From Chitinispirillaceae bacterium (lineage in GTDB: Bacteria; Fibrobacterota; Chitinivibrionia; Chitinivibrionales; Chitinispirillaceae), in contig JAFGIN010000165.1 in the NCBI GenBank assembly GCA_016929595.1, positions 1 to 64,000 on the forward strand: 64,000 nt of DNA, written 5' to 3'. The notes below the pieces were generated by a model. It did not search any database, was not told the DNA's origin, and worked only from the letters and a program-made list of their open reading frames with translations. A program made the position numbers and the translations under genes. Positions 551 through 49,640 of the stretch are shown in pieces. The stretch's first letter is position 1; each line of letters starts with the position of its first letter.

Positions 551-2095
551 TTACTTATCAATATCTACCAGTTCATATTCTATTTTGCCTAAACCAATCT
601 CCTGGCCGTACTTCAAACCGTCTAATCCTTTAAATTGTGTGCTTTTGATCCGGTCTTTGAGTGCTTGCCCTCCGCTTGCAGCCAAAACGAGATCGCAGGA
701 AGCCTGGTCTATCGCTATGGGATCCAGTGATCCCAGCATACCGATATCATCCATCAACGGATTTCCCTGCCCTTTCCCCATATTCGCATCGCAGTCACAT
801 TCCAACACCAGATTGTCTACTGTGTTGATGTACACGAGATTTCCCTCAAGTGCATCGTGAACAGCTTTTGAAGCTTCGACCATTCCTTTCTGAAATTTAT
901 CACCTTGGAGAAACGAGAACGTTTTCTTTTGTTCGCCACCGCTGTGAATCCAGCGTTTTCCATTTGGTGATGCAAATCCGAATGATACGTTTTTAATGGC
1001 TCCTCCAAATCCGGCTATTCCGTGTCCCTTGAAATGTGATATAACGAGACTGGACTGATAATTTTTAAAATTGGCACCAACATCGATTGAACCTTTAAGC
1101 TGTGAGCCACCTTTCACAGGGAGAGTAATTTCACCATCGGTGTCAAGAATATCTACACCCTGACCAATGGTATCAAATCCATGATCCTTGGAAACCTGCA
1201 GGTTTCTTGCGGGGGTATCTCTAACAACGGATCCTTCCATGCTGAAACCAAGGCAGGTTTCAACGATTGTTCCATTCACCTGATTCACAAGGCTTGCCAT
1301 TCTGCCTGATGATATAAAATATTTGCCGCCTGGTTCTCCATTATGCACTTTGACCATAATTTCGCCGGGCAGGTCGTAACCGATAGCTTCGTAAATAGCT
1401 AAAAACCCCTCAGGACCAAGTTTTTTTGTCATGTAGACAACAGGCTTTTCACCAGGGGCTCTCAGCACCATTCTGATATTTTCCCTGGAAAGACGGTTTA
1501 GAGGCCATCGCTGGGTAATGTAACCATCTTTCGAAAAAATAAGTGTATCAGCAACCGTTTTTGCAACTCTTTTTTTCATCGTGAACGATCTGGTGCCTTC
1601 GACCTTCTCTGGTGCATCTTTACTTTTAAGCTGTTCATTTCCGGTGCAAATCAGTGAACGGGTAAATGATTTGCCGTTTATGATTCCAGCAAGCAGATAT
1701 GAACCGGAACTCAACCTTGAAGGCAGTGCGAGCGCCCGCTCTCCGACAGGAAGATTGTCCAGAGTGACCGAGGTAATAAGCCTTCCGTTAATCGAATAGA
1801 GCGAAAGTTTTCCTGAAACCTTTTCCGAAACGGAGGAGAAAACAATAGTATTGTTTCTAAAAGTAAGCCCATATGATGTTTTGAGATCATTTGGCAGAAG
1901 TACGTTGGTTACGTTGGAGAGGGTAAACGCACCGTCAGTATTGGTTACTGCTGAGAGATTGTTCAATTTGGCAAGTGTTACCTTTACACCTTCCAGTGAT
2001 TTGCCATCAGTACTTTTCACCGTACCGGAAAGCACAACATCTTCCGCGTGCAGTATACTGCAGAGCGCCACAACAATCATCATAAAACGTATCAT
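551..2095 (-). CDS. Secreted DUF362 protein with N-terminal carboxypeptidase-regulatory and sorting-like modules
   Basis: 514 residues. A signal peptide (about 1-17) is followed by a carboxypeptidase-regulatory-like fold from about 20 (SGTVKSTDGKSLEGVKV). A sorting-tail-like beta module occupies about 85-150 (LYSINGRLI, later GSYLLAGIINGK). A return strand near 183-210 (DTLIFSKDGYITQ) looks like the second half of the regulatory domain. DUF362 spans about 215-505 (LGPEGFLAIYEAIGYDLPG, VKVHNGEPGG). DUF362 is common in anaerobes; its function is not established and it is often linked to iron-sulfur proteins. I see no ferredoxin cysteine cluster here. The ATG has a strong GGGGAG site a few bases upstream. 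It stands alone and is followed by a terminator. Export to the cell surface is inferred. Confidence 0.85.
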   Translation of the reverse strand: MIRFMMIVVALCSILHAEDVVLSGTVKSTDGKSLEGVKVTLAKLNNLSAVTNTDGAFTLSNVTNVLLPNDLKTSYGLTFRNNTIVFSSVSEKVSGKLSLYSINGRLITSVTLDNLPVGERALALPSRLSSGSYLLAGIINGKSFTRSLICTGNEQLKSKDAPEKVEGTRSFTMKKRVAKTVADTLIFSKDGYITQRWPLNRLSRENIRMVLRAPGEKPVVYMTKKLGPEGFLAIYEAIGYDLPGEIMVKVHNGEPGGKYFISSGRMASLVNQVNGTIVETCLGFSMEGSVVRDTPARNLQVSKDHGFDTIGQGVDILDTDGEITLPVKGGSQLKGSIDVGANFKNYQSSLVISHFKGHGIAGFGGAIKNVSFGFASPNGKRWIHSGGEQKKTFSFLQGDKFQKGMVEASKAVHDALEGNLVYINTVDNLVLECDCDANMGKGQGNPLMDDIGMLGSLDPIAIDQASCDLVLAASGGQALKDRIKSTQFKGLDGLKYGQEIGLGKIEYELVDIDK

Positions 2096-2640: not shown

Positions 2641-3543
2641 CTACTTTACACATATCTGATGCATACTTGATTGCAATTGATTTGAAACATTTAAGAGATA
2701 AACACCCGATATAATTTTATCCGGTAACAGGCTGACTTTACTATTACCATCAGATATGTCCAATACCTTATTCATTATCATTGCTCCATTGAGCGAGTAT
2801 AATGCAACATGGATCAACCGGTCAGCAGATGCTTTTACTAACAGTGAACTGCTGCCTGCAATTAATGTAATCATTTCCCGCTGCAATCCAGGTTCAATAA
2901 CTGATGTTGGTGTCTGTACTGAAATCGCAAGTTTTAAAGTATCAAAACCGTTTTTACCATCTGATGCAACGATTTGAATTGAACTGTTCTTACTTCCGCT
3001 CACCGGTTTCAATACAAGATTGGGGCTTGTGAAATCGACCCATCCGGGCTTATTCCCACTTAAAGTAAATGTAACCGGATCCTTATCCTTATCATTAGCA
3101 GTTACTTTATATATAAGAGATTTTCCCGTAGTACACACTACAGCACTGGCACTGGTAATTTCTGGTGGATTGTTTACAGAAACACTACCGCTACTGGTTT
3201 TAAACGTAGACCTGGTGTACGGGTATGTTCTTCCCTTCCAAAGGCCGGTAACGTTGTAATAGTAGGTTGTACTCGGATTCAACCCTGTTAATTTAACAGG
3301 ATTACTGCTGTAAACGCTCTTTGAGTTTCCATATGAAGTCGATGTTCCCCATTCAATAGTCATCGTTCCGTTATTTTCTTTATAAGACCATTTCAAATTT
3401 GCATGCGTACTGCAGGCTTCGCCACCGGTTATTCTAAACGATGCAGCCGTAATAGCATCAATGGTGTTACACTGGGCATTTGATCTTGTACTTAAAAACA
3501 GTATAAATATTAAAAGAGAAAAAAGTGCTTTTTTAAATCTCAT
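2641..3543 (-). CDS. Secreted fibronectin type III / Ig-like protein with C-terminal sorting tail
   Basis: 300 residues from the ATG at 3543, chosen over an in-frame ATG 12 codons earlier because CGGAG sits 6 bases upstream and the signal peptide (MRFKKALFSLLIFILF) then starts cleanly. The mature protein opens with a cysteine-containing segment and an FN3-type domain (about 40-110, GLNPSTTYYYNVTGL). A cadherin/putative-Ig-like domain follows (about 120-210, NPPEITSASAV, ANDKDKDPVTFTL). The last 75 residues form a T9SS-type A-like tail (HVALYSLNGAMI, GVYLLNV). No catalytic residues are apparent; adhesion or carbohydrate binding at the cell surface is the likely role. It is monocistronic. Confidence 0.8.
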   Translation of the reverse strand: MRFKKALFSLLIFILFLSTRSNAQCNTIDAITAASFRITGGEACSTHANLKWSYKENNGTMTIEWGTSTSYGNSKSVYSSNPVKLTGLNPSTTYYYNVTGLWKGRTYPYTRSTFKTSSGSVSVNNPPEITSASAVVCTTGKSLIYKVTANDKDKDPVTFTLSGNKPGWVDFTSPNLVLKPVSGSKNSSIQIVASDGKNGFDTLKLAISVQTPTSVIEPGLQREMITLIAGSSSLLVKASADRLIHVALYSLNGAMIMNKVLDISDGNSKVSLLPDKIISGVYLLNVSNQLQSSMHQICVK

Positions 3544-3687
3544 AATCACTCCGTATGATGTTGTTTCATTGCAAAACATTTTGATAATATACAGAAATCC
3601 CGGTTCAGAATCATGATATTGTCCTGTTTCCCGAAAATTCCATTCTCAATTGAGAATGATTATAATATACACATTTTTGATAAAGCG

Positions 3688-32779: not shown

Positions 32780-35545
32780 TTATTGAACAAGAACTTTTCT
32801 GGAAATATGCTTCCCGTCAATTTTAACATTAACGATATAAAGACCCGGTGAAGATACAGAATACTGATACGTACAGGTAAATCCGTTTCCGGAGTGGACA
32901 GGTTTTATCATAACTTCTTTCTGCTGCGCACAACCGTTTAATCTGAAAATGGTCACTGAAACAGGACTCATCACTGATGATGACGTAATAACAAGTTTGC
33001 GTGCTCCGAAGGATAGTGCATCGGGAGTGAGAGGACTGTTTTTCAACATGTTAAACCCTGTGATTGATGGATCGGATGAGACAATGAAAGCCTGTTTGAC
33101 ATCCTGCATCGGCAGGACAACTGTAGCAAGTTTTTTGTCACTGTTCCAGACCAGTCCGGTTTCATTACCGGAAATTTCAGAAAGCGATGAATAGGACTTG
33201 ATCGCTTTGCCACAGAAATACAGCGTAGGTGCATCTGACAATCCGTGATAAATAATGTTGTATGCCCGGGTTGCTGGAGTACCGTCGTAAGAGCCGCTTA
33301 CCCCGGAAACGGTCACGCTCTTATCAGCATCTTTGTAACTCAGATTCGTCGTGCAGAATTTCTCTTCAGTACGGTACTTTTCAGAAACACCATCATCTTC
33401 GTAGAGGCTTAATTTACCGTCTGCACCGGTATAGACATGGATATTCAACGAGTCCTTCGGAATCCAGAATGTTGACAGCGCGTACGGTGCTTTAGGAATA
33501 ATTGCTCCGGCCTTTACAAAAACAGGCGTGACACCGGTTGCTGCATAATAGTTGATTGTTTTATTCCCTTCCATTTTGTCATCATTCCAGTAGTCATACC
33601 AGTTGCCTTTTGGGAGCCATACGGAGACATTGTTGTTACCATTGGAACAGTTCGGTGCAACCAGCATTTCCCTTCCCCAGTAGTACTGCATATCCTTTTG
33701 CCATGCAGTTTCATTTTCCGGATCTTCAAAAAACATTGAACGCACCATGGGTACACCTGTGCGGGCTGCAAGATGAGCATAGGAGTAGATATACGGCATC
33801 ATCTCATAACGGGTTCTGCAGTATTTCATAGCATCATCTTTGCTTGCCTGGTTGTTCTGCTGCAACGGCCAGCGTCGGTGAGACGGTCCATGCGGCTTCC
33901 AGATCGGAGTGAAACTTCCGAAACCAAAATCCCATTGTCGCATCAGTTTGTCGATGTCTTCAGAAGCACCACAGGTATTTTCACCGTAACCGCCGTAGTG
34001 GCCGCCGGCATCATGATTGAAATAGGGAAAACCGGAGAGACCGGCAGCCTGCATCGCACGAACCTGATATACCATATCACTCCAGGTGTGACACAGGTCG
34101 CCAGTCCAGTACGTGCCGTATCGCTGCGCGCCGGCAGTTATCCCGCGGACCCAGTAGTAAGGCCGTTTCGCATCACCGAATCTCTTATCCCAACCGTCCT
34201 CAACACAAACTTTCATAAGGTTGAAATGGTAATTGATCGACTCTTCCGCCCACTTTTTTCCGTTGTGCAGTGTTGTCGAATGTGAATGATCGGGATAGTC
34301 AAATTCGTCAAGCCATATCGCATCACCGGGAGTACCGAGTGCCGGACTGTATGCCACATCATTAAAAAGATCGGTGAGCCATTTTACTGTAGCCGGATTG
34401 GTGAAGTCAGGACAATTTTCGGTACCGGGAATGCCATACTCACTTTTCCAGCTTGGGATCATATCTATTCCTGGTCTGTTAAGATCAAGCGTCATGGTCA
34501 TCCCGTTCTCATCAAGCCACTCACTGTATGCTTTAGGATCGGGGTAGCGGTCTTTTGTACGCCATGCGAACCATGAATTGCTCTGCGCGGAGTATTGTGC
34601 ATTTGATTGCCGCCAGGCGTTATCATTGACCTGATGGTCGAGTGGATATTGAGCCTTGCGGTGATCGGTAATCATTTTTTTCCACCACTGTTCACCGTTA
34701 TTTTCCGGATCACCTTTATCGGACAGGTGGAGCCCGAAAATCGACTTCGTTGGCATCCGGGGACGCCCGGTAAGTTGGGTGTATCTGTCAATTATTGTCG
34801 GAAGCTCAGGACCAGCGATAAAAAAGAAATCCATTCTACCCCCGTAACCTTCGCCGTCGATCGTCATGGAGTACACGTTATCTTTACATAGAGTAAAAGT
34901 GTGTTTGAATGTGGTATTCAAAAAAACGCCGTATCCTTTTGAAGATAGAAAAAACGGTACCACACACGCACCTTCGCTACCGCTCTTTACCGTAAAAGCC
35001 GTCCCCTTCCGGTCCAGTTTATCGAGACGACCGTACTTTGGATGTCCGAGACCGGCAAAATGCTCATTGGAATTCGCGGCAAAAGATTGGGTAACGGTGT
35101 TGCCATTCCATACGGTTCCGTCTTTTTCTTCAAGCACCGGCACAGTTCTCACTTTAAGTAAAAAGGAGAGACGGAGCGGTTTTTTCGTTACTGCGACAAC
35201 GAAACCATCACTGGCGGCGGTAGACATGGTTAATGATGAAGCGCTTGTCTCAACATTGAGTGTGCCGTCCCAATCGTGTCGTTCAACAAGATCATACCGG
35301 TCGTCAGGATAAAATTCCTCCGTACTCCGTATTGTCTGAATACGCACGATATAATCACCATAAGGGGTTATTCGCATCTTGCCGCCTGAATCATCAGTAA
35401 TGATAACACTCCTTCCCGAAGTCTCATGAGAAGAGTAATCACCCATCTCTCCAGAGGATTGTGCAACCAGGAATGATACCAGCAAGAGTGCTGAAACCAC
35501 TGTTTTTATTAAATTAATTTTGTAGTGAAAAATAGTTGGAATCAC
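32780..35545 (-). CDS. Secreted glycoside hydrolase family 31 with C-terminal sorting tail
   Basis: About 921 residues. The GTG at 35545 is preferred to an ATG 6 codons upstream, since CAGGAG lies 6 bases before the GTG; residue numbers below are from the ATG. After a signal peptide come an N-terminal beta domain (about 50-250) and a catalytic (beta/alpha)8 barrel. The likely nucleophile is Asp419 in IWLDEFDYPD, and the acid/base Asp489 in YWTGDLCHTW. A DUF5110-like domain follows (LYEDDGVSEKYRTEE), then a tail (SPGLYIVNVKIDGK). GH31 includes alpha-glucosidases and alpha-xylosidases; which it is cannot be told. First gene of the minus-strand degradation block as counted from the left. Confidence 0.9.
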   Translation of the reverse strand: MIPTIFHYKINLIKTVVSALLLVSFLVAQSSGEMGDYSSHETSGRSVIITDDSGGKMRITPYGDYIVRIQTIRSTEEFYPDDRYDLVERHDWDGTLNVETSASSLTMSTAASDGFVVAVTKKPLRLSFLLKVRTVPVLEEKDGTVWNGNTVTQSFAANSNEHFAGLGHPKYGRLDKLDRKGTAFTVKSGSEGACVVPFFLSSKGYGVFLNTTFKHTFTLCKDNVYSMTIDGEGYGGRMDFFFIAGPELPTIIDRYTQLTGRPRMPTKSIFGLHLSDKGDPENNGEQWWKKMITDHRKAQYPLDHQVNDNAWRQSNAQYSAQSNSWFAWRTKDRYPDPKAYSEWLDENGMTMTLDLNRPGIDMIPSWKSEYGIPGTENCPDFTNPATVKWLTDLFNDVAYSPALGTPGDAIWLDEFDYPDHSHSTTLHNGKKWAEESINYHFNLMKVCVEDGWDKRFGDAKRPYYWVRGITAGAQRYGTYWTGDLCHTWSDMVYQVRAMQAAGLSGFPYFNHDAGGHYGGYGENTCGASEDIDKLMRQWDFGFGSFTPIWKPHGPSHRRWPLQQNNQASKDDAMKYCRTRYEMMPYIYSYAHLAARTGVPMVRSMFFEDPENETAWQKDMQYYWGREMLVAPNCSNGNNNVSVWLPKGNWYDYWNDDKMEGNKTINYYAATGVTPVFVKAGAIIPKAPYALSTFWIPKDSLNIHVYTGADGKLSLYEDDGVSEKYRTEEKFCTTNLSYKDADKSVTVSGVSGSYDGTPATRAYNIIYHGLSDAPTLYFCGKAIKSYSSLSEISGNETGLVWNSDKKLATVVLPMQDVKQAFIVSSDPSITGFNMLKNSPLTPDALSFGARKLVITSSSVMSPVSVTIFRLNGCAQQKEVMIKPVHSGNGFTCTYQYSVSSPGLYIVNVKIDGKHISRKVLVQ

Positions 35546-35625
35546 ATTTTGCTCCTGCTTCATGTAGTATTTGTAGTACTGATAATATACATACTTTAGG
35601 CACTATAATAAATATCTAATATATT

Positions 35626-37209: not shown

Positions 37210-38853
37210 TTAATGTTGCACAATTAACTGTTTAACAAAATACTGACCGTTAATGGACATGCTGGCTATATAGATTCCCGTCGGAACGACAGCTGTATTC
37301 CAGTCAGCGGTGTGTCGTCCTTTTGGTAACCTGTTATTGACCAATGTCGTCATTTTTCTGCCGGAAGCAGAAAACACTTCAATGGATACTTGTGCTGGTG
37401 CCCTTACAGTGTATTGCAGGCTAATTGTGTTTGAATATGTCAACCTGTTGAGCGCTTCAAAGCTCAATGTTGATTCTGTAGCGGGCTTGGGATTTATAGT
37501 GTGCACCGGAAGGTCATAATCATAAAAGGTTCCTACCACTTCGGACTTTATGATCTGTGCTGATGTGTAAACCCCACGAAACCATAAAACAGCTTCTTTT
37601 CCCGTTTTCCACTTCGGAACAACAGGACGAAAGTTGTCAACCGACGAGTTGGCGGTAACCGGTTCCCATTTCCATGTCATTCCCTTGTCTTTTGTAGTCC
37701 CCCGCCAGATCTCCCTTTTTGATGAAGGTGCTTCATTATCATTACCGGGATTAAATGCAGTACACATATAGATGCGATCAGGATCATCCGGGTTCACTGA
37801 ACCAAGACCTACGTAATCATGCTCATTTCCATAAATGTGTTTACCTGCTTTCCCAAGGTAAGTGATGCTCCATTTCGTACCGTCATAACGTGCATAAAAG
37901 TTTCGATGATCATCAATAGCGTCATTGGCCCGTGCCTTGAATAGAATGACAATCGTTCCATCGTCATATCGGGCGATGTCGTGTTGCCAGCAGCGACCCA
38001 TGGTCACGCCATTGACTTTAGTACCGTGTACAAATACTTTTGTAAATTTATCGAATGTGGGAATTTTACTGAGGTCGTAAATATTGTCATCGGCCAGTTT
38101 ACCTTCGGTATTGTATGTTTTTCCATCAGTGATATAACCATGATAGATACTCGTTGTAAAATCACGCGGATGCTGTTCGGTAAAAACCATGTCGATCCGA
38201 TCCACTCCGTTACCCCAGTATTTATAATACCCCTTGTTGTAACTGCTGCTGCTGTTGGTGGTAAGTTGCCCTCCGAATTCCCACGTTTCACCATTGTCAT
38301 CAGAGAAAAGAAAATTGGGTGCCCTGTCGTTGGCACGAGCAAAGTTCAGCATTCGTTTTTCATTGGCCAGGTAATAAACATTAGAGTAGGCAATCGTATA
38401 ATCGGTTCCCCCCGGAATCTTCGTCCAGTCATACTTTTTTTCAGCGGACCATCCGCTTCCGTTATAAATACTATAGCGACTATTATATTTATCATAATGG
38501 TGAGCCCAGATCGCTACATAATTCCCGTTGGGAGCGATGCAAATTCCGGGAGCATTATGATCATCGGAGTATTCCAGTTTACCGAAACGTTTGCTACTCT
38601 CCACCTTTTTAGTTTGAAGGTTGAAAATGGTTACATCACAACTGCTTTGCATATTCGTGGAACCTATAACCAGTTTGTTTTTAACTGTATCAATTACCGC
38701 GCGCTCATCCTGAAACCAGCACCAGCACCCGTCACTGACATATTTATAGACTGTTTGATCAACGTAATCTTTTGTTGATTGAGAAAACGACTGTAAATGC
38801 AAGGCAATCAAACACAATGTGATGCTTGCAAAACCAGAAATTAACTTATTCAT
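37210..38853 (-). CDS. Secreted BNR_4 protein (candidate rhamnose-glucuronate lyase) with sorting tail
   Basis: 547 residues. After a signal peptide (about 1-25) the BNR_4 (PF15892) signature begins with SDGCWCWFQDERAVIDTVKN (about 39-58) and continues with NAPGICIAPNGNYVAIWAHH. A seven-bladed beta-propeller is expected. Some BNR_4-containing proteins are polysaccharide lyases of families PL24, PL25 and PL42 (ulvan or rhamnosyl-glucuronate lyases). Whether this one is catalytic is not shown by the sequence. The final 70 residues form a FlgD-like tail (QVSIEVFSASGRKMTTLV, GIYIASMSI). Its neighbour GH88/105 would process unsaturated uronates from such a lyase. Confidence 0.85.
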   Translation of the reverse strand: MNKLISGFASITLCLIALHLQSFSQSTKDYVDQTVYKYVSDGCWCWFQDERAVIDTVKNKLVIGSTNMQSSCDVTIFNLQTKKVESSKRFGKLEYSDDHNAPGICIAPNGNYVAIWAHHYDKYNSRYSIYNGSGWSAEKKYDWTKIPGGTDYTIAYSNVYYLANEKRMLNFARANDRAPNFLFSDDNGETWEFGGQLTTNSSSSYNKGYYKYWGNGVDRIDMVFTEQHPRDFTTSIYHGYITDGKTYNTEGKLADDNIYDLSKIPTFDKFTKVFVHGTKVNGVTMGRCWQHDIARYDDGTIVILFKARANDAIDDHRNFYARYDGTKWSITYLGKAGKHIYGNEHDYVGLGSVNPDDPDRIYMCTAFNPGNDNEAPSSKREIWRGTTKDKGMTWKWEPVTANSSVDNFRPVVPKWKTGKEAVLWFRGVYTSAQIIKSEVVGTFYDYDLPVHTINPKPATESTLSFEALNRLTYSNTISLQYTVRAPAQVSIEVFSASGRKMTTLVNNRLPKGRHTADWNTAVVPTGIYIASMSINGQYFVKQLIVQH

Positions 38854-38900: not shown

Positions 38901-40712
38901 TTATTCATCCCACAGAATGGTATTAGTCTTTAATGGTTCACCTTCCAGTTCAGGCACCTCACCATCCTGCCATTTCGATTTGTCAAATGTGAAAGACTCG
39001 CTGAACATACCACTTGTTGGAACATCTTTATTGAGCAGAAAACGATCAACGAATGCATTCAAAATTTTCATCTGTCCGGCATTACCACTCTGCGCACAGT
39101 GACCATGGTTTCCGTGTCCCCATCCGAAGTTGTCGGGTACTCCAAGAGCTTCAAAAACAAAAGAGGCATATTTTGCTGCGTGGTAACAACAGGTCGGGCA
39201 ATTCCAGCTGTCATTGGTACCTTCCAGAAGAACAATGGGTCGAGGTGCGCGCATGGCAATAACCTCATGCTGGTCAATTGGCAGTTTATTGACGTTACTG
39301 CCTCCGAACTTTTGAAATACCGCACCCATCCAGGTGCATTCACCATAAATCTGGCTCGCCTTCTGCACGTTACCCTGTGTCTCAGCGACTCGCCAGGTAC
39401 TGGAAAAGCCCGATCCCGGTGAAAGGACAATGGGAAGCACGATGCGATCATCAAATACTGCCATGCCGGCTCCTTTACCCCAGCGTGAACATCCCATTGT
39501 TCCGAGCCGTTTCGGATCAATTTTAGTCGCCTGTTGAATTTCCGGTAATTCAAGCGCATCAACAATCCTGCTCAAACCCCACGCCCAACCAATAAGTGCC
39601 CCCTGATTATTTTTAAGGTTCGGATATAAATCATTGAAAACTCCCTTCGCCGGTCGGGGATTCCTTTCACTGGCAACATTGTCCTGAGGATACTCTATTT
39701 TCGCGACACCGCTTGGGATACTCGGTCCCATGCTCATACCACCGGCACCAAAATTAATGATAGCGGGATGAGGACCTTCACCCGATGGTACTCCGGAAAT
39801 TGTAACTGAAAAACTTTTGCTGTTTGAACCGACTGTACTGGTGATGGTTAATTTTCCGTTGCTGAAGCTGGCTGCGACTTTATCAGGTTTTGGCGGTTTG
39901 GTTCCATAAATAGTCGCCTCCGCAAGTGCCCTGATCTCATTGCGCCGGCAGAGCCATTCCTCTTTTTTACTCAGGCGTGTCCCATTGATAAAACGAAATG
40001 GATCCGGCATTTTTGCATTTGATACATTGAAACTTGAAGGCACTTCGTAATCAGCACATTCAATGTTGGTTTTATTCTCTTTTTTCAGGATAACAGTAAT
40101 ATCCTTCTTTTCATATGAGTCAATAGCCATATTAGTTGTTACATAACCGCTTTTTGAAGTCTTCAGGGTATCAACAGCATTTGCACTTGCCGCGAAAGTT
40201 ATCTTTTTATGTAAAGATCCATGCCGGGTTCCCTTCAAATAATATCTCTGACCGTCGGCAATCATGTCATACGTGGTTTTGACACCGTCCAACTCAAGCT
40301 GCACCATATAGTACCCTGGCGAAAGTTCAGGTAAGATTTGCTGCAATACCCCTGCCCGCTGTTGTCCCATGTTAAGAGCGGTTACCTGTCTGCCATTGCC
40401 TGAATACAGGGTAACGGAAGCATTCTTACAATCTACACTATTTGTAAATAGTAGTGTCTTTCCATGAAGGCTGATGCGCAGGTCATTACCTGTCAAATCA
40501 GGTGTATGCTTCAATATGTCGCTACCCGAAACGGTAATGGTGAACATACCTGCATCATCAGTCGTGTCCTTAAGCTCTGCCAGATTAGCAAGACCTACTA
40601 TTGCAGCAGGCACAGCCGCTCCGTTTTCATCTTTTACTGTACCGCTTAAGGTTGCAGCATAAGAAAATGAACACCACACTGCTATAAATGCAGCTATCAT
40701 TTGTTTTATCAT
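38901..40712 (-). CDS. Glucuronoyl esterase (CE15) with N-terminal regulatory/sorting-like modules
   Basis: 603 residues. A signal peptide (about 1-19) is followed by a carboxypeptidase-regulatory-like fold (SGTVKDENGAAVPAAIVGL), interrupted by a sorting-like module (VTLYSGNGRQVTALNM, about 100-114). The fold then returns (DTLKTSKSGYVTTNM, about 181-195). The esterase domain (about 225-590) has the CE15 nucleophile motif GCSRWGKGA with Ser409, and a late histidine region GWGHGNHGHCA. CE15 enzymes cut ester bonds between glucuronic acid and lignin or alcohols in xylan. It belongs to the minus-strand degradation block and probably shares a transcript with the BNR_4 gene 47 bases on. Confidence 0.92.
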   Translation of the reverse strand: MIKQMIAAFIAVWCSFSYAATLSGTVKDENGAAVPAAIVGLANLAELKDTTDDAGMFTITVSGSDILKHTPDLTGNDLRISLHGKTLLFTNSVDCKNASVTLYSGNGRQVTALNMGQQRAGVLQQILPELSPGYYMVQLELDGVKTTYDMIADGQRYYLKGTRHGSLHKKITFAASANAVDTLKTSKSGYVTTNMAIDSYEKKDITVILKKENKTNIECADYEVPSSFNVSNAKMPDPFRFINGTRLSKKEEWLCRRNEIRALAEATIYGTKPPKPDKVAASFSNGKLTITSTVGSNSKSFSVTISGVPSGEGPHPAIINFGAGGMSMGPSIPSGVAKIEYPQDNVASERNPRPAKGVFNDLYPNLKNNQGALIGWAWGLSRIVDALELPEIQQATKIDPKRLGTMGCSRWGKGAGMAVFDDRIVLPIVLSPGSGFSSTWRVAETQGNVQKASQIYGECTWMGAVFQKFGGSNVNKLPIDQHEVIAMRAPRPIVLLEGTNDSWNCPTCCYHAAKYASFVFEALGVPDNFGWGHGNHGHCAQSGNAGQMKILNAFVDRFLLNKDVPTSGMFSESFTFDKSKWQDGEVPELEGEPLKTNTILWDE

Positions 40713-40848
40713 AAATCCTCCAATTAAAAAATGAACTGTTCACATTGAGTTTAAATGCCCGTTTTTCTGTAAGAAAATGTATATTCATTAAAGACAAAAG
40801 AACTCCACCTGGCCATTTTTGAATGGCAACAGTGGTCTCTTTTAGTAT

Positions 40849-40893
40849 GCTGTCCGTGTCTCCTTGCAGGGATCGCCACGGACAGCCTTTTTT
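40849..40893 (+). terminator. Intrinsic terminator between CE15 and LamG genes
   Basis: Stem GCTGTCCGTG/CACGGACAGC (10 pairs) with an 18-base loop, then CTTTTTT on the plus strand. On the minus strand there is no T-run, so orientation does not match the flanking genes; the hairpin alone may still end the LamG transcript. Confidence 0.65.
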
Positions 40894-40972
40894 GTCTTTC
40901 AATTTTTTTAAATCGGAATAACGTATCGTCGTTTCACTATCACGGTACTACAGTTATCCAGCTTAAGTAGTT

Positions 40973-42583
40973 CTATTCAAATACGACCAGTTTATCATCC
41001 TTCCTCTGATTCATATAAGAGAGTTTTATCCAGTCGGGACCAGGGGCGATACTCATTATGCACACCTCATCAAGCATTCCATTCCAGTATCCGTAATCAC
41101 TTTCGGTTCGTTTACCTATCATTACATCGAAAGTGTCATTCCTGACTACTCCTTTCTTGATCACAATAGTACTGTCCATGCAGATGCCGTCTACATAAAG
41201 ACGCATTTTTTCGCCGTTGCGTACACCGGTCAGGAGTTTCCACTCCTTTAGCGACGGCTGAGTATATATTGACTGAAGGCCTGATCCGTCAACAATGTCA
41301 TAAATCTCCCACAGATCAAATCCGCTGAGGTCCAGATTGTAACTTCTGTCCCCTTTGGAGATTATATAATGCCCTGAGGAATCAATTACTTCCGTATAAA
41401 CCCATGCGGAAAGCGCATATGTCCCTTTTTGTGGAAAGTTCAGTCTCCCGTCTGCCGTACCGGATAGAGCAAAATAGCTGGAGTCACCATCAAAGCGCTG
41501 TGCACGACCAATCATCCCATCTACTGATGAAGCCTCATTCATATGAATGGGAGTACCATCAAAACCATTGGCTGTGGCATCAAAAGCGGTCGTATTACCA
41601 TCCTGTCCCATATGCCACACCCCCTGGAAACCTGCAGCAGTATCGAATACCATGCTGCTGCTTGACATGTCTGATGCGTAGGGGTTTCCCCAGTACATGA
41701 TAACATTCTGTAAATTATTACCACCAAAAACCGTATCGACTTTCACCCATATTTCTGCATGTCCGTTTTCAGGAACCCACCGCTCAATTTCATAAGAAAG
41801 CGATCTCCCCCCGGAGGTGACAAAGCGGATATCCTCACCATGTTTTTTTGCGTGTAAAAAATTGAAATTCTGAGTATTGAGTCGAATTAGCACCGGAAAA
41901 TTGTAGACGTTTCCCGGTACATTGGCACCAGTCGTACTTGTATTGAGAGTAAGTTTTCGGTTGTATTTCCAGAGTGGAAATTCGACTGTAGCTGTATCAC
42001 CGGCAGGCACAGTGATTTGGTTGCTGAGTATGTTATGAGTGGCAGTGTCATCTTTGACAAGTACAATTTCACTAAGAGTACCGGGCGGTATATCGGCTAA
42101 AAATAGTGATCCGTTATTTCCGACTGACGAAGAAATATCTGTACCGGGAATATACATGTACTCTCCTTGTATTACGTCAACCGAAGATGCATTCATTACT
42201 ATAGAACCGGAACGGTTCAGAGTTGCTGCAGGAGCGGTTGTTATTGAATCATTACTGACGATAATGTCTCTGCTGAGAGCGCTTGACATTGTTTCCGGGC
42301 TGCGGGATAAAATGGTGTAGTTTCCTGAATCGATGGAGCTGAAAAAGTATTTCCCTTCCGCATCAGAGGTATCGATAAAATTGAGAGGCAATGGATTATC
42401 GCTTACGGGGTCGTAATCATCAGGAAAAAGCTTCACAATCGTATTTGCTGCCGGAGAGTCATCAGTATTACGAACTACACCGACAATTCCGTTGGTCGTT
42501 TCTCCGCCTGCCCCTCCAACTATCTGTTCAGTGCAGGAGGTGAAGAAGATGAGGATTATAGCTGTAACAAGACCACGCACCAT
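40973..42583 (-). CDS. DUF2341/LamG-domain lipoprotein
   Basis: 536 residues from the ATG at 42583, which overlaps the TIGR02147 stop as TAATG and has GAAGGAG upstream. The leader ends in a lipobox-like FFTSC (Cys at about 17). A carboxypeptidase-regulatory-like domain (GIVGVVRNTDDSPAANTIV) is followed by a second, poorly defined beta region. DUF2341 follows (RLNTQNFNFLHAKKHGEDIR, MYWGNPYA), and a LamG/concanavalin-like domain (GVWHMGQDGNTTAFDATANG) ends the protein. LamG domains bind glycans or proteins. Coupling to a TIGR02147 gene is a recurrent arrangement in Fibrobacterota; surface display is inferred. Confidence 0.87.
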   Translation of the reverse strand: MVRGLVTAIILIFFTSCTEQIVGGAGGETTNGIVGVVRNTDDSPAANTIVKLFPDDYDPVSDNPLPLNFIDTSDAEGKYFFSSIDSGNYTILSRSPETMSSALSRDIIVSNDSITTAPAATLNRSGSIVMNASSVDVIQGEYMYIPGTDISSSVGNNGSLFLADIPPGTLSEIVLVKDDTATHNILSNQITVPAGDTATVEFPLWKYNRKLTLNTSTTGANVPGNVYNFPVLIRLNTQNFNFLHAKKHGEDIRFVTSGGRSLSYEIERWVPENGHAEIWVKVDTVFGGNNLQNVIMYWGNPYASDMSSSSMVFDTAAGFQGVWHMGQDGNTTAFDATANGFDGTPIHMNEASSVDGMIGRAQRFDGDSSYFALSGTADGRLNFPQKGTYALSAWVYTEVIDSSGHYIISKGDRSYNLDLSGFDLWEIYDIVDGSGLQSIYTQPSLKEWKLLTGVRNGEKMRLYVDGICMDSTIVIKKGVVRNDTFDVMIGKRTESDYGYWNGMLDEVCIMSIAPGPDWIKLSYMNQRKDDKLVVFE

Positions 42584-43431
42584 TACTTCTCCTTCTTCCA
42601 TGTACAGGAAGCCACAGGAAACAGTTGTATATTTAACTGTACAACTGCATCATCATTCTCTTCGTTTTGAGAAATGAGGAGCAGTTCCTGTCTGAATTGT
42701 TGAATTTTTTTTCGCAGAACATCGATATTTTCCATTCGCATGGTCATTGTAACAGAGGAGATATCGCGAAGTTCCTTATTGTACATATCGATGGCAGAAA
42801 GAGAAAGTTCTACATTCTTTTTCTGATAATTTCGTATCACCGCCGCTGCCCATTTTTCACCAGTTGATATAAACTGTTCGGTCACACGGTAGAGGCCGTC
42901 TTCATTTTTTTTGATCATATTGAGTTGTTCAAGCAGCTCGATGGATTCCCGTGCCTCTTGTGCGGTAATTTTTGGTGAGAGCATTGAAGCCAGTTTTCGA
43001 TAATCTTTTCCGTCGAATGGATAAATGCTGATAAGTGAACGGATTGCCATGTGGTACCATTGTGTGAAAAATTCTGATTTATTGTCGGCAACAGTCCGGA
43101 ATGTAACACCTTTTATTGATTGTAATCGCTCAAAACGTTGTTCAATTTCATCTTCATTTTTTGCTCGTCCGAAATGAAGTAACTCGCCAAAGTATTCTCG
43201 TTCCTTTTCTGATAGCATCATCAAATCCGCAAACGAACCGATATTCTTTATTCCAAGGTGTACCTTGCCCTGAAAAACTTTTACAATATATCCCGGATTA
43301 AGTTTCACTTTGGATGATATATATCTGTAGGAAAACCAGGGCTTGTTCTTCCTTTCATTGTCATAGAAGTCTTTGAGGTATTGCCGGTAATCGAGATATT
43401 CATAAATATTGAGCATAGAGTAAAATTCCAT
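42583..43431 (-). CDS. TIGR02147 family protein
   Basis: 282 residues; an ATG at codon 6 (MLNIYEYLDYR) is the alternative start and fits the family better. The N-terminal half reads NIYEYLDYRQYLKDFYDNER, then FSYRYISSKVKLNPGYIVKV with GKVHLGIKN, a helix-turn-helix-like unit as in the family. The C-terminal half is helical (ESIELLEQLNMIKKNEDGLY). TIGR02147 is a paralogous family known mainly from Fibrobacter and relatives and is considered a probable transcriptional regulator. It is cotranslated with the LamG lipoprotein, suggesting that it controls or works with it. This is the best taxonomic marker in the window. Confidence 0.93.
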   Translation of the reverse strand: MEFYSMLNIYEYLDYRQYLKDFYDNERKNKPWFSYRYISSKVKLNPGYIVKVFQGKVHLGIKNIGSFADLMMLSEKEREYFGELLHFGRAKNEDEIEQRFERLQSIKGVTFRTVADNKSEFFTQWYHMAIRSLISIYPFDGKDYRKLASMLSPKITAQEARESIELLEQLNMIKKNEDGLYRVTEQFISTGEKWAAAVIRNYQKKNVELSLSAIDMYNKELRDISSVTMTMRMENIDVLRKKIQQFRQELLLISQNEENDDAVVQLNIQLFPVASCTWKKEK

Positions 43432-43640
43432 TTCTATGAGACAATATAATCAAAATATTGAACAATATCTTACGGCTGATGAAAAAAGTGTTGCATTGTT
43501 ATGCAACACTTTTTTGAATTAAATATACTTATCCCTTTGATATATAAGGATAAGAGTTATTATGCCTGACTTTAGTATCATTGAAATTAAGGACAATTTG
43601 TGCAACACCGGTCAGGAAAGTTAAGTTACTTATTTATATA

Positions 43641-43808
43641 CTATTTCTACAACGTTAAAATACCTGAATCGCATCAAAAAGGTCATTGAGTGCAAGCGGT
43701 GCATTGAGCGAAGTCGATATGTCGAAATGACAAGCGTGATTTGCTTAAAACGCGTCGTCTCGACTCCGCACGACGACCGGAACAGTAATGTTAACGTTGT
43801 AGAACTAT
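43641..43808. repeat. MITE-like element with perfect 14-base terminal inverted repeats
   Basis: TTCTACAACGTTAA at 43645-43658 is the exact reverse complement of TTAACGTTGTAGAA at 43791-43804. The interior contains GTGCATTGAGCGAAGTCG and ATGTCGAAATGACAAGC. No gene inside. A shortened relative is at 37143-37195. The remainder of the 43432-43998 gap is AT-rich; TGTTGCATTG/CAATGCAACA-like sequence at about 43488-43508 forms a small hairpin (GTTGCATTGTTATGCAAC). Confidence 0.75.
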
Positions 43809-43998
43809 AACCATAGATAGGGAATTTTTATTTCCTCATAATTTGAAGTTGTATAAAAAGATCGCTCATGCTGATCCTGAGCCCGGGATGTGTTTATAGT
43901 CGGCAGGATGTACGACTTGCAGGAGTGTTTCTATTTCATGTCAGCTATTTCATTAAAAGATCTCCTGCGTTACTCATCAGGTCAGCAATATTTAATGA

Positions 43999-45582
43999 TT
44001 ATCTTTTGTTAAATTCAAGACATAGTACTGCGTTGAAACCACCAAAACTCTTTTTAGTGTTAACCTGACCGTTTGAACTTTTACCTGCGAATTTTTTTTT
44101 CAACTCAATAGGAACAAACTGCCGGAGTTTTAAAAATGCTGTACAATGCGTAGTAGTATGTGTATATACCAGTTCGGGATAGAGGGTGATATAATTTTTT
44201 TTAACGCTATGTATTGTAAGGTTCTGGTATAACGGCAGCAGACCCATATAGCGCACAAGTTCCTGCGAAGTGTAGTGACCATCAATTATTGCGTACGATA
44301 GTGAACCCTGCATCAAGAGTGCATGTTTTGGTGTAAATGTTTTGTTATAATGAACAGTTACTCCGGTATTGTGTAACGACATGGCGAGATCCGATATTTT
44401 GTACCTGTCGGGGATATCCAGGATGATACCCCAAGATGTAAATGGGTATACTTCAAAAAATCCGTCATCGCCAGTGCAGTTAATCCTTTCGAAAAAGAGG
44501 GATAGTCCGGTTTTCCGGGAGAGTGTGAGAGATGTCATTGCGTTTATTGTTGTCGATGCAATATCATTCACCTGCGAAAAACGTTCTCCTGTACTTTCCA
44601 TGGCCCGGAATAGAAGCTCTTTCCTGTTGATTCCCAATTGTAGTGATGGTGTATACTGAAGTCTCCTGATACGCACGCCGGTGATACATCCGTAACTGGT
44701 ACCATCTATTGATAAAAGAAGTCTGGAGCCATACTGCATATCGCATGTCTGGAATACCTCTGCAATGAGATTGCACTCGAGTGCCATAGGCCCAAAATCG
44801 TATACTCCTTTGAAACAAAGGCTATCCTTGTTTATGTCGATATCGGTAAAACGGTAATTGTTATTTGACCTGTTTTTTATTTGTATAGTTCCGGCAATGA
44901 CCGATCTGTTGGTGAGGGTCGTCTGGAGATAGAGCGGTTTGACAGCTGCGGAACAGAAAAGAGTATAGTCAATAGCTGGAGTTAACCGAAGGTGTTTCAG
45001 TAAAGAAAACCCTTTCAGTCCCGGGACCTGATCTGTCTGTCTGAGGTCTGTTGCAAGTAGAGCACCAAGTTTGTAATAACTGGCATTGTAAATATATCCG
45101 AAATAAAGATCGGTTGAGGACAGATCTGCATCAACCGATGCGTGGTACTTTGAATGAGAATACTTGTATTCGTATAGGTTTACTTTTCCACCTGCAACTA
45201 TCGCAAATCCTGGATTTTGTGCGATGATCAACTCTAAAGACTGACTTTTGTTGTCTCCGCCATTGGAAACTGCATTATTCCATTCCCTGTAAAGACAATT
45301 GTATTCTGTTATTGTGCGAATGGAAAGGAGAGAACAGGGGTTCGAGCAGGGATCAAATGAAGAGGGGAATCTCTCAGGTGCTGCAGTGTGCAAAAAAGAT
45401 TGTGTACCGTTTCCGACGGGAAATACTATCACTGAAGGAGTGGCGGGTGGTATAGGGTGTGATTCACTGCAAATGGCACTGCTGCAAAATAGAAAACAAT
45501 ATGCCATTGTGAGGCACAACAGAAGATTAAAAAGGCCGGCAAGATCGATCACCGGCCCGAATTTGAATTTTTCAGGTTTCAT
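43999..45582 (-). CDS. Large exported protein of unknown function, probable outer-membrane barrel
   Basis: 527 residues from the ATG at 45582 (an in-frame start 11 codons earlier would overlap the gene before it by more). A signal-type segment (FNLLLCLTMAYCFLFCSS) is followed by a proline-rich stretch, a helical patch (TITEYNCLYREWNNAV), then many amphipathic strands, e.g. KYHASVDADLSSTDLYFGYI and FMALECNLIAEVFQ-like sequence. The end (GGFNAVLCLEFNKR) alternates like a barrel strand. No family recognised. It starts inside or next to the stop of the 768-residue gene and is cotranslated with it, so the two products likely work together in the envelope. Confidence 0.65.
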   Translation of the reverse strand: MKPEKFKFGPVIDLAGLFNLLLCLTMAYCFLFCSSAICSESHPIPPATPSVIVFPVGNGTQSFLHTAAPERFPSSFDPCSNPCSLLSIRTITEYNCLYREWNNAVSNGGDNKSQSLELIIAQNPGFAIVAGGKVNLYEYKYSHSKYHASVDADLSSTDLYFGYIYNASYYKLGALLATDLRQTDQVPGLKGFSLLKHLRLTPAIDYTLFCSAAVKPLYLQTTLTNRSVIAGTIQIKNRSNNNYRFTDIDINKDSLCFKGVYDFGPMALECNLIAEVFQTCDMQYGSRLLLSIDGTSYGCITGVRIRRLQYTPSLQLGINRKELLFRAMESTGERFSQVNDIASTTINAMTSLTLSRKTGLSLFFERINCTGDDGFFEVYPFTSWGIILDIPDRYKISDLAMSLHNTGVTVHYNKTFTPKHALLMQGSLSYAIIDGHYTSQELVRYMGLLPLYQNLTIHSVKKNYITLYPELVYTHTTTHCTAFLKLRQFVPIELKKKFAGKSSNGQVNTKKSFGGFNAVLCLEFNKR

Positions 45583-45593
45583 CAGCCTGATCA

Positions 45594-47900
45594 CTAATAT
45601 ATAAGGTCGAGCCATTTCTGACGTGTCATGTCTGGAAACAGTCCGTTAACTGTGTAATCGTTAAAATAAGGAAAGAATGTATTGCTGTCAATGAGATCTT
45701 CAATTTCATCAAAAGAAATCGGTTTCCCACTGTCATCGACAAGTCTGACCGGTTCAATGCTGTATGTGGAATCGATAGTGACAGTGTATTTGACTGGATG
45801 TGAAATGGTGTATTGTGTGTACCATTCGTAATATGCTGTGGAGTCTATCATGGATGGGTCTATTACCAGCGAGTCATCTTCATATAGATTGATACATGTC
45901 AGAGTATCATATTTCTGAGTTGAAGTATTCCAGCGAATTTTATAATTGGAGTATTGATACGAGTCCTGCCAGACATCGGTTGTCATCCATTTTGCCTCGT
46001 CAACCCAGGTGTATTTTGGAAGCAATGAGCGAAGGTCGGTCACCGGATTTGTAAAGAAAGAAGAAAGGTTGATTGTAAGAGACCTGTTTTTCCCGTCGAT
46101 AGTTTCGTTAAATGCATAAGGACCCTCTAACAGTTTTGTTACAAAATCAGCCAGTCTCTCTACGGAAGAAAAATTCTGAGCGAATGATTGGGATGCGCCG
46201 TCATCGATCAATTCCTGTGAAATGTCAAGTAAATCCTCGTCGCAGCTGAGAACGTCAGAGATCCTGACAAGGTCATCTTCCTGGTCATCAGTCTCGTTGC
46301 GAATCGAGCTCATACCTGTTTTAACTTTCTGAGGAACAATACGCAGATCTGCAAGCATACCCTCATGATTCTGTTTCCTGATTGACATGAACTGTGGCCG
46401 TTGTTCAAGATTGTATTTGAATGTTTTTAAAAGTGTCGTCAGTATTTTTGAATCATCATAACGGTAGATATGTAAAAGAGTGTCACCTTTTATTGTAAAT
46501 ATATTCTTACTGGTCTCATATTCTTTTACATTAACTATCATTGAATCGATCCATGTGTAGCCTAAGTCTGATGCAGATGTAGACAGATTGAGATCGTAAG
46601 CGCAGTACATGCGTACACATGCTCTGAGCAGGTGCATGGAAGCATCGAAGAGGTAGATTTCACCTTTGTCTAATTCATAAGTATCTCCATCTACATCGAC
46701 TTTCATGGCGTCTGTCTGCAACCCTTCTATTCTTGCTGCCGTGGCAATTACTTTGTCAATTATCGGGATCATTTCTGATTCCATGATACCTTGAATGTAA
46801 CTCAATGTAATGAACTTCGGGAAGCTCGGTTTACGTACCATGCCGGTTAAAATTACCGGGGTCTGAGAAAGCATCGTTTTTCCCAAAGTTAAAACGCCAC
46901 CTTTTTTCATCGCTTTTTTAAAAAGTCCATTCCGTGGTGCAGGTTCAGGATCATTTTCGAGATAAGTATCGACACCTTCTACCCAGGATTCAATGGAATC
47001 AATCATTTTCCAGATTTTCTGGTTACTATTAAGTGACATTATTGAAGACAAAATAAGTCCAACATTTGATTTAAAGCGGCTGCTGTCGATTCCAAGCAGC
47101 TCCTCAAAACTACTTCTGATAGAGATGTAGTCGATGGCTTTGAGCTCATCAGCATCCTCAATGAATTCGACTTCTTCAACCCGTTCAATCAGCAGTCTAA
47201 TGAGAGAATCTTCAACACTGCTTATCACTTGAGCAGTGTTCAGGTCAAAGGATTTAGTCGCTTCAACATTGCCGACAGCAGTTTCATAGCTTGTTAAATC
47301 TATCGTAATCGGGGTCATGCCAAGTTTCGTAATAATTAAACGATCGATGACTCCGGTCTGAGCTGTTTTCATAATTGGAGAGAATGATCCAATGTTTTTA
47401 ATTGCAATCGGTACTGGTCGTGATGAAGTTTTAGTGAGCGATGTCGCAAATTGCTGTTTTCCTAGCAATCCCTTAACAATAAATGTTCCGCTTCCAAGAT
47501 TACCGGTAAGAAGCGATTGAAGATTCACGCTGTAAGAGCCCCGACCAACCTCACCAGCATCAATCGTTTTGCAGAGGCGTCCCTGCAGGGAGTACACTTT
47601 AAAGGACAGTTTTGAGAGCACATCTGATGAGAAGAAGAGAGTGTTACTTTTTATCAATGGAACACTGACACCACCCTGTTTTGTGTTTCGGGGCTGGATC
47701 GGAGATGTATTATCAATATTAAAATTTCCCTGTTGATCTGTAATGGAAATGTAACCGAGAGATTCAAGCCGGGCAACAGCATTTGCTACAGGCTGACCGT
47801 TTTTATCCTTAACAGTTCCACTGATCGAGACTTTCGACTGTGAATAAACGGTGCTGGCAACAACAGTTGCCATGAGAAGTGTGGGAATAAACCTTCGCAT
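45594..47900 (-). CDS. Large secreted protein with regulatory/sorting-like N-terminus, function unknown
   Basis: 768 residues; GGAGGATCCTGT precedes the ATG. A signal peptide (about 1-20) leads to SISGTVKDKNGQPVANAVAR (carboxypeptidase-regulatory-like). A sorting-like module follows (FKVYSLQGRLCKTID, about 100-114; GSGTFIVKGLLGK), then a return strand (DRLIITKLGMTPITIDL). The remaining 540 residues are unlike any family I know. They are largely helical and acidic, e.g. EDSLIRLLIERVEEVEFIED and MIDSIESWVEGVDTYLEN, with an aspartate-rich C-terminal region ending MTRQKWLDLIY. It is the first gene of a pair with the putative barrel protein. Confidence 0.7.
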   Translation of the reverse strand: MRRFIPTLLMATVVASTVYSQSKVSISGTVKDKNGQPVANAVARLESLGYISITDQQGNFNIDNTSPIQPRNTKQGGVSVPLIKSNTLFFSSDVLSKLSFKVYSLQGRLCKTIDAGEVGRGSYSVNLQSLLTGNLGSGTFIVKGLLGKQQFATSLTKTSSRPVPIAIKNIGSFSPIMKTAQTGVIDRLIITKLGMTPITIDLTSYETAVGNVEATKSFDLNTAQVISSVEDSLIRLLIERVEEVEFIEDADELKAIDYISIRSSFEELLGIDSSRFKSNVGLILSSIMSLNSNQKIWKMIDSIESWVEGVDTYLENDPEPAPRNGLFKKAMKKGGVLTLGKTMLSQTPVILTGMVRKPSFPKFITLSYIQGIMESEMIPIIDKVIATAARIEGLQTDAMKVDVDGDTYELDKGEIYLFDASMHLLRACVRMYCAYDLNLSTSASDLGYTWIDSMIVNVKEYETSKNIFTIKGDTLLHIYRYDDSKILTTLLKTFKYNLEQRPQFMSIRKQNHEGMLADLRIVPQKVKTGMSSIRNETDDQEDDLVRISDVLSCDEDLLDISQELIDDGASQSFAQNFSSVERLADFVTKLLEGPYAFNETIDGKNRSLTINLSSFFTNPVTDLRSLLPKYTWVDEAKWMTTDVWQDSYQYSNYKIRWNTSTQKYDTLTCINLYEDDSLVIDPSMIDSTAYYEWYTQYTISHPVKYTVTIDSTYSIEPVRLVDDSGKPISFDEIEDLIDSNTFFPYFNDYTVNGLFPDMTRQKWLDLIY

Positions 47901-48491: not shown

Positions 48492-49640
48492 TTGAATTGT
48501 CTGGTAAAGTTGTTTGATAAAAAGATATCATTCATCGGGATGATGCTTTACTATATCGTTGCTGTTGTGACCGCTGAAGTTGACCCCGATTTTCATCTAT
48601 ATCTTTTGTTTGGTCAATCAAACATGGCGGGGGCATGTAATGGATGGACTGCGACCACCACGGATTATAAGGCTCAGGATTGTGATACCTCTTCCCGAAT
48701 TAAAGTGATGGCTTTCACAAATTGCTCTGGTAATAAATCAAATCCCTGCGGTTCCTTTACGGTGAACCGCAGGCATAATCAGTGGTATACAGCTGTGCCT
48801 CCTCTGCATAACTGCAATGAGGGAATCGGTCCGGCGGATTACTTCGGAAAAACACTTCTGGATTCGATTCGTGAGGATATACGTATCGGCTTTATTCCCT
48901 GTGCACTTTCGGGACAATCGATTACCATGTTCAAGAAAGGTCAGATGTCTCAGGTACCGGATTGGTGCAACCAGTATCTTTCTCAGCAGGGATCGGTATC
49001 TGTTTACAACTGGATGAAAGAACGTTGCCAGATCGCACAGCAATCAGGAGTGATCAAAGGTATACTTTTTCATCAGGGTGAGTCAGATGCTGGCAATCCA
49101 AATAACTGGGTCAGAGATGTGAAATCTGTTTTTGACAATCTCAAAAAAGACCTCAATCTCAGTGATACCCTGCCGGTCATTGTTGGAGAGTTGCTGTATT
49201 CTGAAGCTGGCGGCACCTGTGCATCAATGAATCCCAGAGTTAAGCAACTTGCATCCGAGTATCCAAAATGTAAAGTTGCATCTGCAGAAGGTTTGACTAT
49301 GCTTGAAGGTGACAGTTATAAGGTGCATTTCGGTTGCAAGGCACTGCGGGAATTCGGCTATCGTTACGCAAAAGCATTTTTATCACTTACGGATGATTCC
49401 TGGGTACCAAGGAAGGGTAATGTCAATACGAGTTTTAAACGTATATTAAAATATACAGCTGCTCCGGAGAAGGCACAAACAGAGGTAACCGTTTTTTCAC
49501 TGAATGGCCAGATGATATTTAAAGCTCTCCCAGGTGATGTTACTCATGTCTTCAATGCCAGGCTCTTAAAGGGTGTTTATATAGTAAAAAAAGAATTTTC
49601 AGACGGGGCGACAGAGATGTCATCTTTTATGAAAGAGTAA
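48492..49640 (+). CDS. Secreted sialate O-acetylesterase-like esterase (SASA/CE6) with sorting tail
   Basis: 382 residues from a TTG at 48492 with AAAGGTGG upstream; an ATG pair at codon 17 is possible. After a signal segment the catalytic domain begins at FHLYLLFGQSNMAGACNG (about 36-53), with the nucleophile serine in GQSNM. A later block is GILFHQGESDAGNPNNW (about 194-210), the second conserved block with glutamine/glycine/glutamate/serine. These mark the SASA/DUF303 group including CE6 acetyl xylan esterases. The C-terminus (TEVTVFSLNGQMIFKAL, GVYIVKKEF) is a sorting tail. It probably deacetylates plant polysaccharides alongside the CE15/GH genes. Confidence 0.88.
   Translation: MNCLVKLFDKKISFIGMMLYYIVAVVTAEVDPDFHLYLLFGQSNMAGACNGWTATTTDYKAQDCDTSSRIKVMAFTNCSGNKSNPCGSFTVNRRHNQWYTAVPPLHNCNEGIGPADYFGKTLLDSIREDIRIGFIPCALSGQSITMFKKGQMSQVPDWCNQYLSQQGSVSVYNWMKERCQIAQQSGVIKGILFHQGESDAGNPNNWVRDVKSVFDNLKKDLNLSDTLPVIVGELLYSEAGGTCASMNPRVKQLASEYPKCKVASAEGLTMLEGDSYKVHFGCKALREFGYRYAKAFLSLTDDSWVPRKGNVNTSFKRILKYTAAPEKAQTEVTVFSLNGQMIFKALPGDVTHVFNARLLKGVYIVKKEFSDGATEMSSFMKE

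Follow-up and report, generated by a model that had tools for sequence, protein, structure and literature searches.

Why three unrelated proteins encoded on one contig of a Chitinispirillaceae bacterium (phylum Fibrobacterota) should begin alike is the question raised by the first 64,000 nucleotides of contig JAFGIN010000165.1 (assembly GCA_016929595.1), a stretch referred to below as the window. A DUF362 protein (P0001), a CE15 esterase (P0002) and a 768-residue protein (P0003), all encoded on the minus strand, share one N-terminal module of about 190 residues. It is nearly certain that this module consists of two domains, one inside the other: a carboxypeptidase-regulatory (transthyretin-like) fold of seven strands is split 4+3 around a complete immunoglobulin-like (Ig-like) domain homologous to the type A C-terminal domain (CTD) of type IX secretion system (T9SS) cargo. 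The module may serve, with a probability that we put at roughly 0.55, as a device at the N-terminus that localises or anchors secreted Fibrobacterota enzymes, most of them active on lignocellulose.

A beta domain nested in another

The initial annotation described a common order in the three proteins (signal peptide, SGTVKxxxGxxVxxA, a stretch resembling a sorting tail, DTLxxSKxGY) and suggested that one beta domain lies within another; the order was confirmed and the nesting is supported. With the N-terminal 192 residues of P0002 as the sole tblastn query, P0001 was found at 2e-12 and P0003 at 1e-4, the latter carrying a more diverged version of the module (VYSLQGR, GTFIVKG, DRLIITKLGM). The region that drew attention (38901-47900) covers two of the three proteins, and the DUF362 protein is located at 551-2095. 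The features of the module in the window are as follows, the profile matches being full-length and their bit scores inflated because all three proteins are members of the profile alignment:

1463..2032, minus strand: nested N-terminal module of the DUF362 protein, P0001 residues 22-211 (profile match 2-189/190, 181 bits; tblastn)
1649..1852, minus strand: inner T9SS-tail-like domain of P0001 (TIGR04183 match at residues 82-149; whole-genome hit C18:1649-1852)
40083..40652, minus strand: nested N-terminal module of the CE15 esterase, P0002 residues 21-210 (profile match 1-190/190, 187 bits; AlphaFold model)
40533..40652, minus strand: first part of the outer carboxypeptidase-regulatory domain, strands A-D, P0002 residues 21-60 (Pfam CarboxypepD_reg and model strands)
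40236..40487, minus strand: inner Ig-like domain, homologue of the type A T9SS sorting domain, P0002 residues 76-159 (TIGR04183 at 88-147; RemA CTD fold match)
40083..40178, minus strand: second part of the outer domain, strands E-G, DTLKTSKSGY...ITVILKK, P0002 residues 179-210 (model strands; splice test; 9hfj alignment)
47265..47828, minus strand: nested N-terminal module of the 768-residue protein, P0003 residues 25-212 (profile match over residues 25-207, 1-182/190, 146 bits; second AlphaFold model)
47424..47666, minus strand: inner Ig-like domain of P0003 (model strands 63-138; VIA-align hits confined to residues 54-140)

The nested architecture emerges consistently from two AlphaFold models, from profile-profile comparison and from sequence searches of the PDB. 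The first model was built from alignment A1, which comprises the 26 copies of the module found by tblastn in this genome, and has a predicted local distance difference test (pLDDT) score of 85.9 and a predicted template-modelling (pTM) score of 0.53, so that the mutual orientation of the inner and outer parts is unsure. Its strands lie at 2-9, 19-22, 29-31 and 37-41, followed by eight strands from 60 to 144 and then by strands at 162-167, 174-178 and 186-191. In VIA-align comparisons the contiguous 80-residue N-terminal extension (NTE) domain of SusC (9hfj, residues 32-104) was aligned across the range 1-192 of this model (73 residues, Z 11.8, root-mean-square deviation (rmsd) 1.8) and across the range 3-196 of the second model, that of P0003, the most diverged of the window proteins (73 residues, Z 11.0, rmsd 2.1). 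Carboxypeptidase transthyretin-like domains gave the same split alignment at Z of about 10-11. In both models 9hfj thus matches the two ends; residues 57-138 of the first model aligned by themselves to the T9SS signal of RemA in the translocon (8gl6_D; 75/76 residues, Z 8.3, rmsd 2.3), which agrees with the 3+4 Ig-like beta-sandwich of a type A CTD. Fibronectin domains score as high as the RemA CTD on the insert, and a Z of 8.3 is common among Ig folds, so the homology of the insert to CTDs rests on sequence. An arrangement of two ordinary tandem domains was ruled out, the structural match of the outer domain spanning both ends and skipping the middle in both models.

The outer domain shares with the CarboxypepD_reg and CarboxypepD_reg-like families (PF13620, PF13715; including the NTE domains of SusC and RagA) the seven strands, the motifs GxVxDxxGxxlxgAxVxL and TDxxGxF, and a GY motif; 73 of the 80 residues of 9hfj were aligned in both models, confirming the fold. 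It differs in being broken after strand D by about 115 residues, an insertion at the same place in all members, so that it is never uninterrupted, and in standing at the N-terminus of soluble enzymes, whereas the SusC and RagA domains are found on TonB-dependent transporters. The Pfam CarboxypepD_reg match in P0002 is limited to residues 21-60 (profile 1-43/82). When the two outer pieces were joined in one profile, the NTE domains of RagA and SusC were the first PDB hits, up to profile position 63-64. Splicing P0002 raised its CarboxypepD_reg score modestly, from 22.1 bits intact (1-43) to 32.5 bits (1-69; cut-off 32.3), with 27.6 bits when the second half was shuffled; CarbopepD_reg_2 was matched by 26/26 versus 24/26.

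For the insert, profile comparison with the C-terminal tails of this genome (hhalign) gave 99% probability (E 2e-18), and the best hits of its profile among PDB sequences were T9SS CTDs, namely those of Endonuclease I (8glk), RemA (8gl6) and mirolase. TIGR04183 matched 23 of the 26 inserts (E<=0.1; best 2e-9), several above the curated cut-off; its matches in the whole proteins P0001 (82-149) and P0002 (88-147) fall below that cut-off, and the isolated P0002 insert scores 23.9 bits (cut-off 23). A Gly of loop L-beta3-beta4 that is essential in CTDs of P. gingivalis (PMC11285876) is present in all 26 inserts and in all 23 tails, and basic residues after this Gly and in beta7 are as frequent in inserts as in tails (Fisher p about 0.75 each). 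A Lys or Arg in the last strand, where a near-invariant Lys characterizes CTDs, was found in 15/26 inserts versus 15/23 of the genome's own tails. Likeness to type A CTDs (TIGR04183/PF18962 Por_Secre_tail) extends over sequence profile, Ig sandwich, invariant loop Gly and a comparable frequency of basic residues, as well as secreted hydrolases as cargo and a genome that encodes a T9SS; the differences are the N-terminal position, the embedding in another domain, the lack of a free C-terminus and a relaxed G-x-Y turn.

Profile hits shorter than full length cover either model positions 1-43, in plain regulatory domains, or positions 50-135, in C-terminal tails, so that the two ingredients of the module are already visible. 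In the A1 profile of the module, the invariant residues are Gly and Asp and one Leu is nearly invariant. A viral structure search with the module returned phage and virus proteins only, some annotated as sorting-domain proteins, and was uninformative.

Distribution across enzymes and genomes

The three module proteins first recognized are real, but their number was too low for this genome: tblastn with the P0002 N-terminus as a single sequence found 26 copies, every one N-terminal, directly after a signal peptide and before unrelated enzymes, and a profile search with A1 found about 35 full-length copies. Chance resemblance was ruled out by these numbers within one genome. At most a few residues separate the start of the module from the predicted cleavage site of the signal peptide. 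In about half of 40 module-bearing open reading frames (ORFs) of the source genome, a few of which were counted twice, Gln is found at position +1 behind the signal peptide or close to that position, as in the Q-rule of Bacteroidetes, a rule that does not extend to the whole FCB (Fibrobacteres-Chlorobi-Bacteroidetes) group (PMC5837995).

Most passengers act on the plant cell wall; they include CE15, GH3, GH10, GH30, GH45, GH62, expansin-like, CE1-like and CotH proteins, among others, and also DUF362, histidine phosphatase, PBP, FGE-sulfatase and DUF3237 proteins. Two neighbouring GH30-like proteins (L026 and L023; G000:C109:6046 and 8435) have modules that are 73% identical, indicating recent duplication, and module-bearing CE1 esterases in Fibrobacter often occur in tandem arrays of two to three genes (L150, L152, L153, L184, L196 and others).

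A search of genomes found the module to be widespread in Fibrobacterota: at E<=1e-14, a threshold at which only nested copies are expected to score, it is present in 121 of 392 genomes, all 121 belonging to this phylum. It was found in none of the 224 genomes from G168 on, a range from which 14 genomes spread over it were checked and all lay outside Fibrobacterota; at least two genomes without the module, G360 and G168, are rich in ordinary T9SS tails. A scan of the genome collection with P0002 as query returned nothing. Within the family of the source organism, two genera, mostly with small genomes, are without the module, and there are same-family genera that lack it and retain SprA.

Exchange with C-terminal tails and lipid anchors

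Among module proteins with a complete C-terminus a C-terminal tail was found in 0/67, as suspected from the first three, and among tail-bearing ORFs the module was found in 0/47, in loci mostly collected through the module or the tail. Because these loci were mostly fetched through one domain, the CE15 and CE1 families were drawn by catalytic domain. The CE15 set contains 20 proteins with the module and no tail and five with a clear tail and no module, besides one with a weak tail (L085), a pair that is probably one gene split over two contigs (L086/L108) and one with a lipoprotein-like start (L087); in the CE15 tree, module and tail were exchanged at least twice while the catalytic domain was kept. 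A scan with the alignment of Fibrobacter CE1 esterases gave 65 named loci. In this family 83 esterases carry the module and six a lipobox with a Ser-rich linker (L206 is probably a seventh), the catalytic domains being up to about 75% identical; given the starred branches of the tree, the lipoprotein label must have changed four times or more, an approximate number since the tree is a quick one with some long branches. The source genome encodes one CotH protein with the module and another with a tail. In related enzymes a single role is filled by just one of three devices at a time: the C-terminal T9SS tail, the lipid anchor or the module.

The lipid anchor and Ser-rich linker of the Fibrobacter CE1 enzymes stand in the same position before closely related catalytic domains as the module does, but with a predicted lipid-modified Cys and no folded module. 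The possibility that module proteins are themselves lipoproteins was rejected: no lipobox precedes the module, the exceptions being two doubtful pattern hits (L179 and L051). In the CE1 lipoproteins L197, L198, L201, L209 and L212, the lipid Cys is closely followed by acidic residues (CGDD, CSDE, CTDS) and the Ser-rich linkers are long, features that recall lipoprotein export signals of Bacteroidota.

Ordinary C-terminal T9SS tails are present on five other window proteins (32780-35563, 37210-38853, 48492-49640, 11473-13428 and 2641-3579), so the two devices coexist in one stretch of the genome. Three of these tails are given for contrast:

32783..33022, minus strand: ordinary C-terminal T9SS tail of a neighbouring GH31 protein
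37216..37431, minus strand: ordinary C-terminal T9SS tail of a BNR-repeat protein (TIGR04183 over cut-off)
49461..49604, plus strand: ordinary C-terminal T9SS tail of a SASA esterase (TIGR04183 over cut-off)

A probable anchoring role and its alternatives

The idea of N-terminal display or anchoring, raised when the module was first noticed, is supported by its replacement with C-terminal tails and lipoprotein anchors; the partner, route and localisation of module proteins we infer. T9SS tails and lipid anchors place proteins at the outer membrane, at the cell surface or outside (PMC10994853, PMC6851124), and the simplest inference is that the module does so too, probably standing in for a sorting tail or lipid anchor without being cleaved. 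After Sec export and cleavage by signal peptidase I, the module would fold at the new N-terminus and would be kept on the mature enzyme, not cut off; the CTD-like face of the inner domain would dock on an outer-membrane partner, T9SS CTDs suggesting by analogy a PorV-family barrel as the first candidate; the outer domain would grip the inner one at its two ends and link it to the enzyme, which would be held at the cell surface via its N-terminus. Use of the T9SS by module proteins is plausible. The source genome encodes SprA, four PorV-family proteins (G000:C120:72495, C170:60701, C137:22825 and C57:32498) and two PorU-type sortases (C134:48521 and C120:4946), the PorV and PorU matches being above cut-off. 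The presence of more than one PorV-type shuttle and PorU-type sortase could mean separate substrate classes.

Several points weigh against the anchoring interpretation. The G-x-Y turn is relaxed in the inserts (G in 17/26 and Y in 14/26, versus 23/23 and 22/23 in tails; p 0.002 and 0.001), suggesting that the insert is under different constraint. All 67 modules are N-terminal with another domain after them, so the free C-terminus of a CTD is missing, and type A CTDs work at the C-terminus, where loss of the last residues blocks secretion (PMC11285876). The 67 and 47 loci came mostly through module or tail, the CE15 and CE1 sets alone being drawn otherwise, and a swap with a tail or lipid anchor is also compatible with changed placement of the enzyme, not just with substitution of an equivalent device.

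The insert might be a working T9SS export signal shifted to the N-terminus, read by SprA-PorV like a C-terminal CTD so that the enzyme crosses the outer membrane. This would suit its homology to CTDs in sequence and fold, the full type A T9SS of the genome, the switching of CE15 enzymes between module and tail, and the finding that conserved CTD residues mostly specify the fold and that the translocon accepts diverse CTDs (PMC10994853); however, type A CTDs require their C-terminal end and the insert has chain on both sides, its G-x-Y turn is relaxed, and the same-family genera with SprA and without the module indicate that the T9SS does not require it. Such a signal seems unlikely: despite the kept Gly and basic residues, the relaxed turn and the absent free C-terminus speak more for a docking or anchoring domain that stays uncleaved than for an ordinary export signal. 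Uncleaved CTDs that anchor via an outer-membrane barrel are known from type B cargo and PorP-like barrels (PMC9143113), and the uncut type B domain on PorP/SprF barrels (PMC9143113, PMC12618676) is a possible working analogy, although it is C-terminal and of another sequence family and another predicted fold. It is a tentative proposal, to which we would give somewhat less than an even chance, that the module is a second, N-terminal, non-cleaved T9SS-related sorting or anchoring signal (a type A CTD nested in a carboxypeptidase-regulatory domain) that, through recognition by a PorV-type partner or a different one in the outer membrane, brings much of the fibre-degrading enzyme set of Fibrobacterota to the cell surface.

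That localisation is not the job of the module at all, and that it instead binds substrates or complexes, as ancillary domains such as carbohydrate-binding modules or docking domains do, and has the CTD fold by chance, seems quite improbable: most passengers do target the plant cell wall and CTD-like Ig folds are similar to many adhesive domains, but no conserved exposed aromatic patch is evident (the conserved residues being Gly, Asp and Leu), the DUF362, histidine phosphatase, PBP, FGE-sulfatase and DUF3237 passengers do not fit, and one would not expect a carbohydrate-binding module and tails or lipid anchors to exclude each other strictly. A role as an N-terminal cap or spacer that stabilises enzymes exported to the periplasm or elsewhere, with the insert as the relic of a sorting tail trapped in a regulatory domain, would be consistent with the relaxed turn, with conservation that is mainly structural, and with the best structural match of the outer domain, since the NTE of SusC (9hfj) belongs to a type of N-terminal domain lying in the periplasm; the retention of many paralogues across the phylum and the repeated swaps with localisation devices leave it only a slim chance.

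Every ingredient of the module is already known, and the nested combination is new to the open-access literature searched. The initial annotation knew of no described family with this layout, and none was found in that literature, most subscription papers lying outside the search, nor were the nested combination, the N-terminal place, the phylum-wide spread or the exchange with tails and lipid anchors. The accessible parts of two Fibrobacter proteomics papers (PMC6851124, PMC8092306) do not mention the module; the former proposes BTD/FPm-1 as the T9SS CTD and reports that BTD/FPm-1 peptides are missing, and such C-terminal tails are the only sorting signals known to have been proposed for Fibrobacter.

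Fibrobacter is a main cellulose degrader of the rumen, and there is no agreement yet on how its enzymes stay at the cell surface. Should the module be an anchor, a set of fibre-degrading enzymes that seem to be just secreted would bear an unrecognised address label that can be found with one profile, and the fold of a C-terminal sorting signal would be working inside another domain at the opposite end of the protein, a point of direct relevance to recognition by the T9SS or by its outer-membrane partners.

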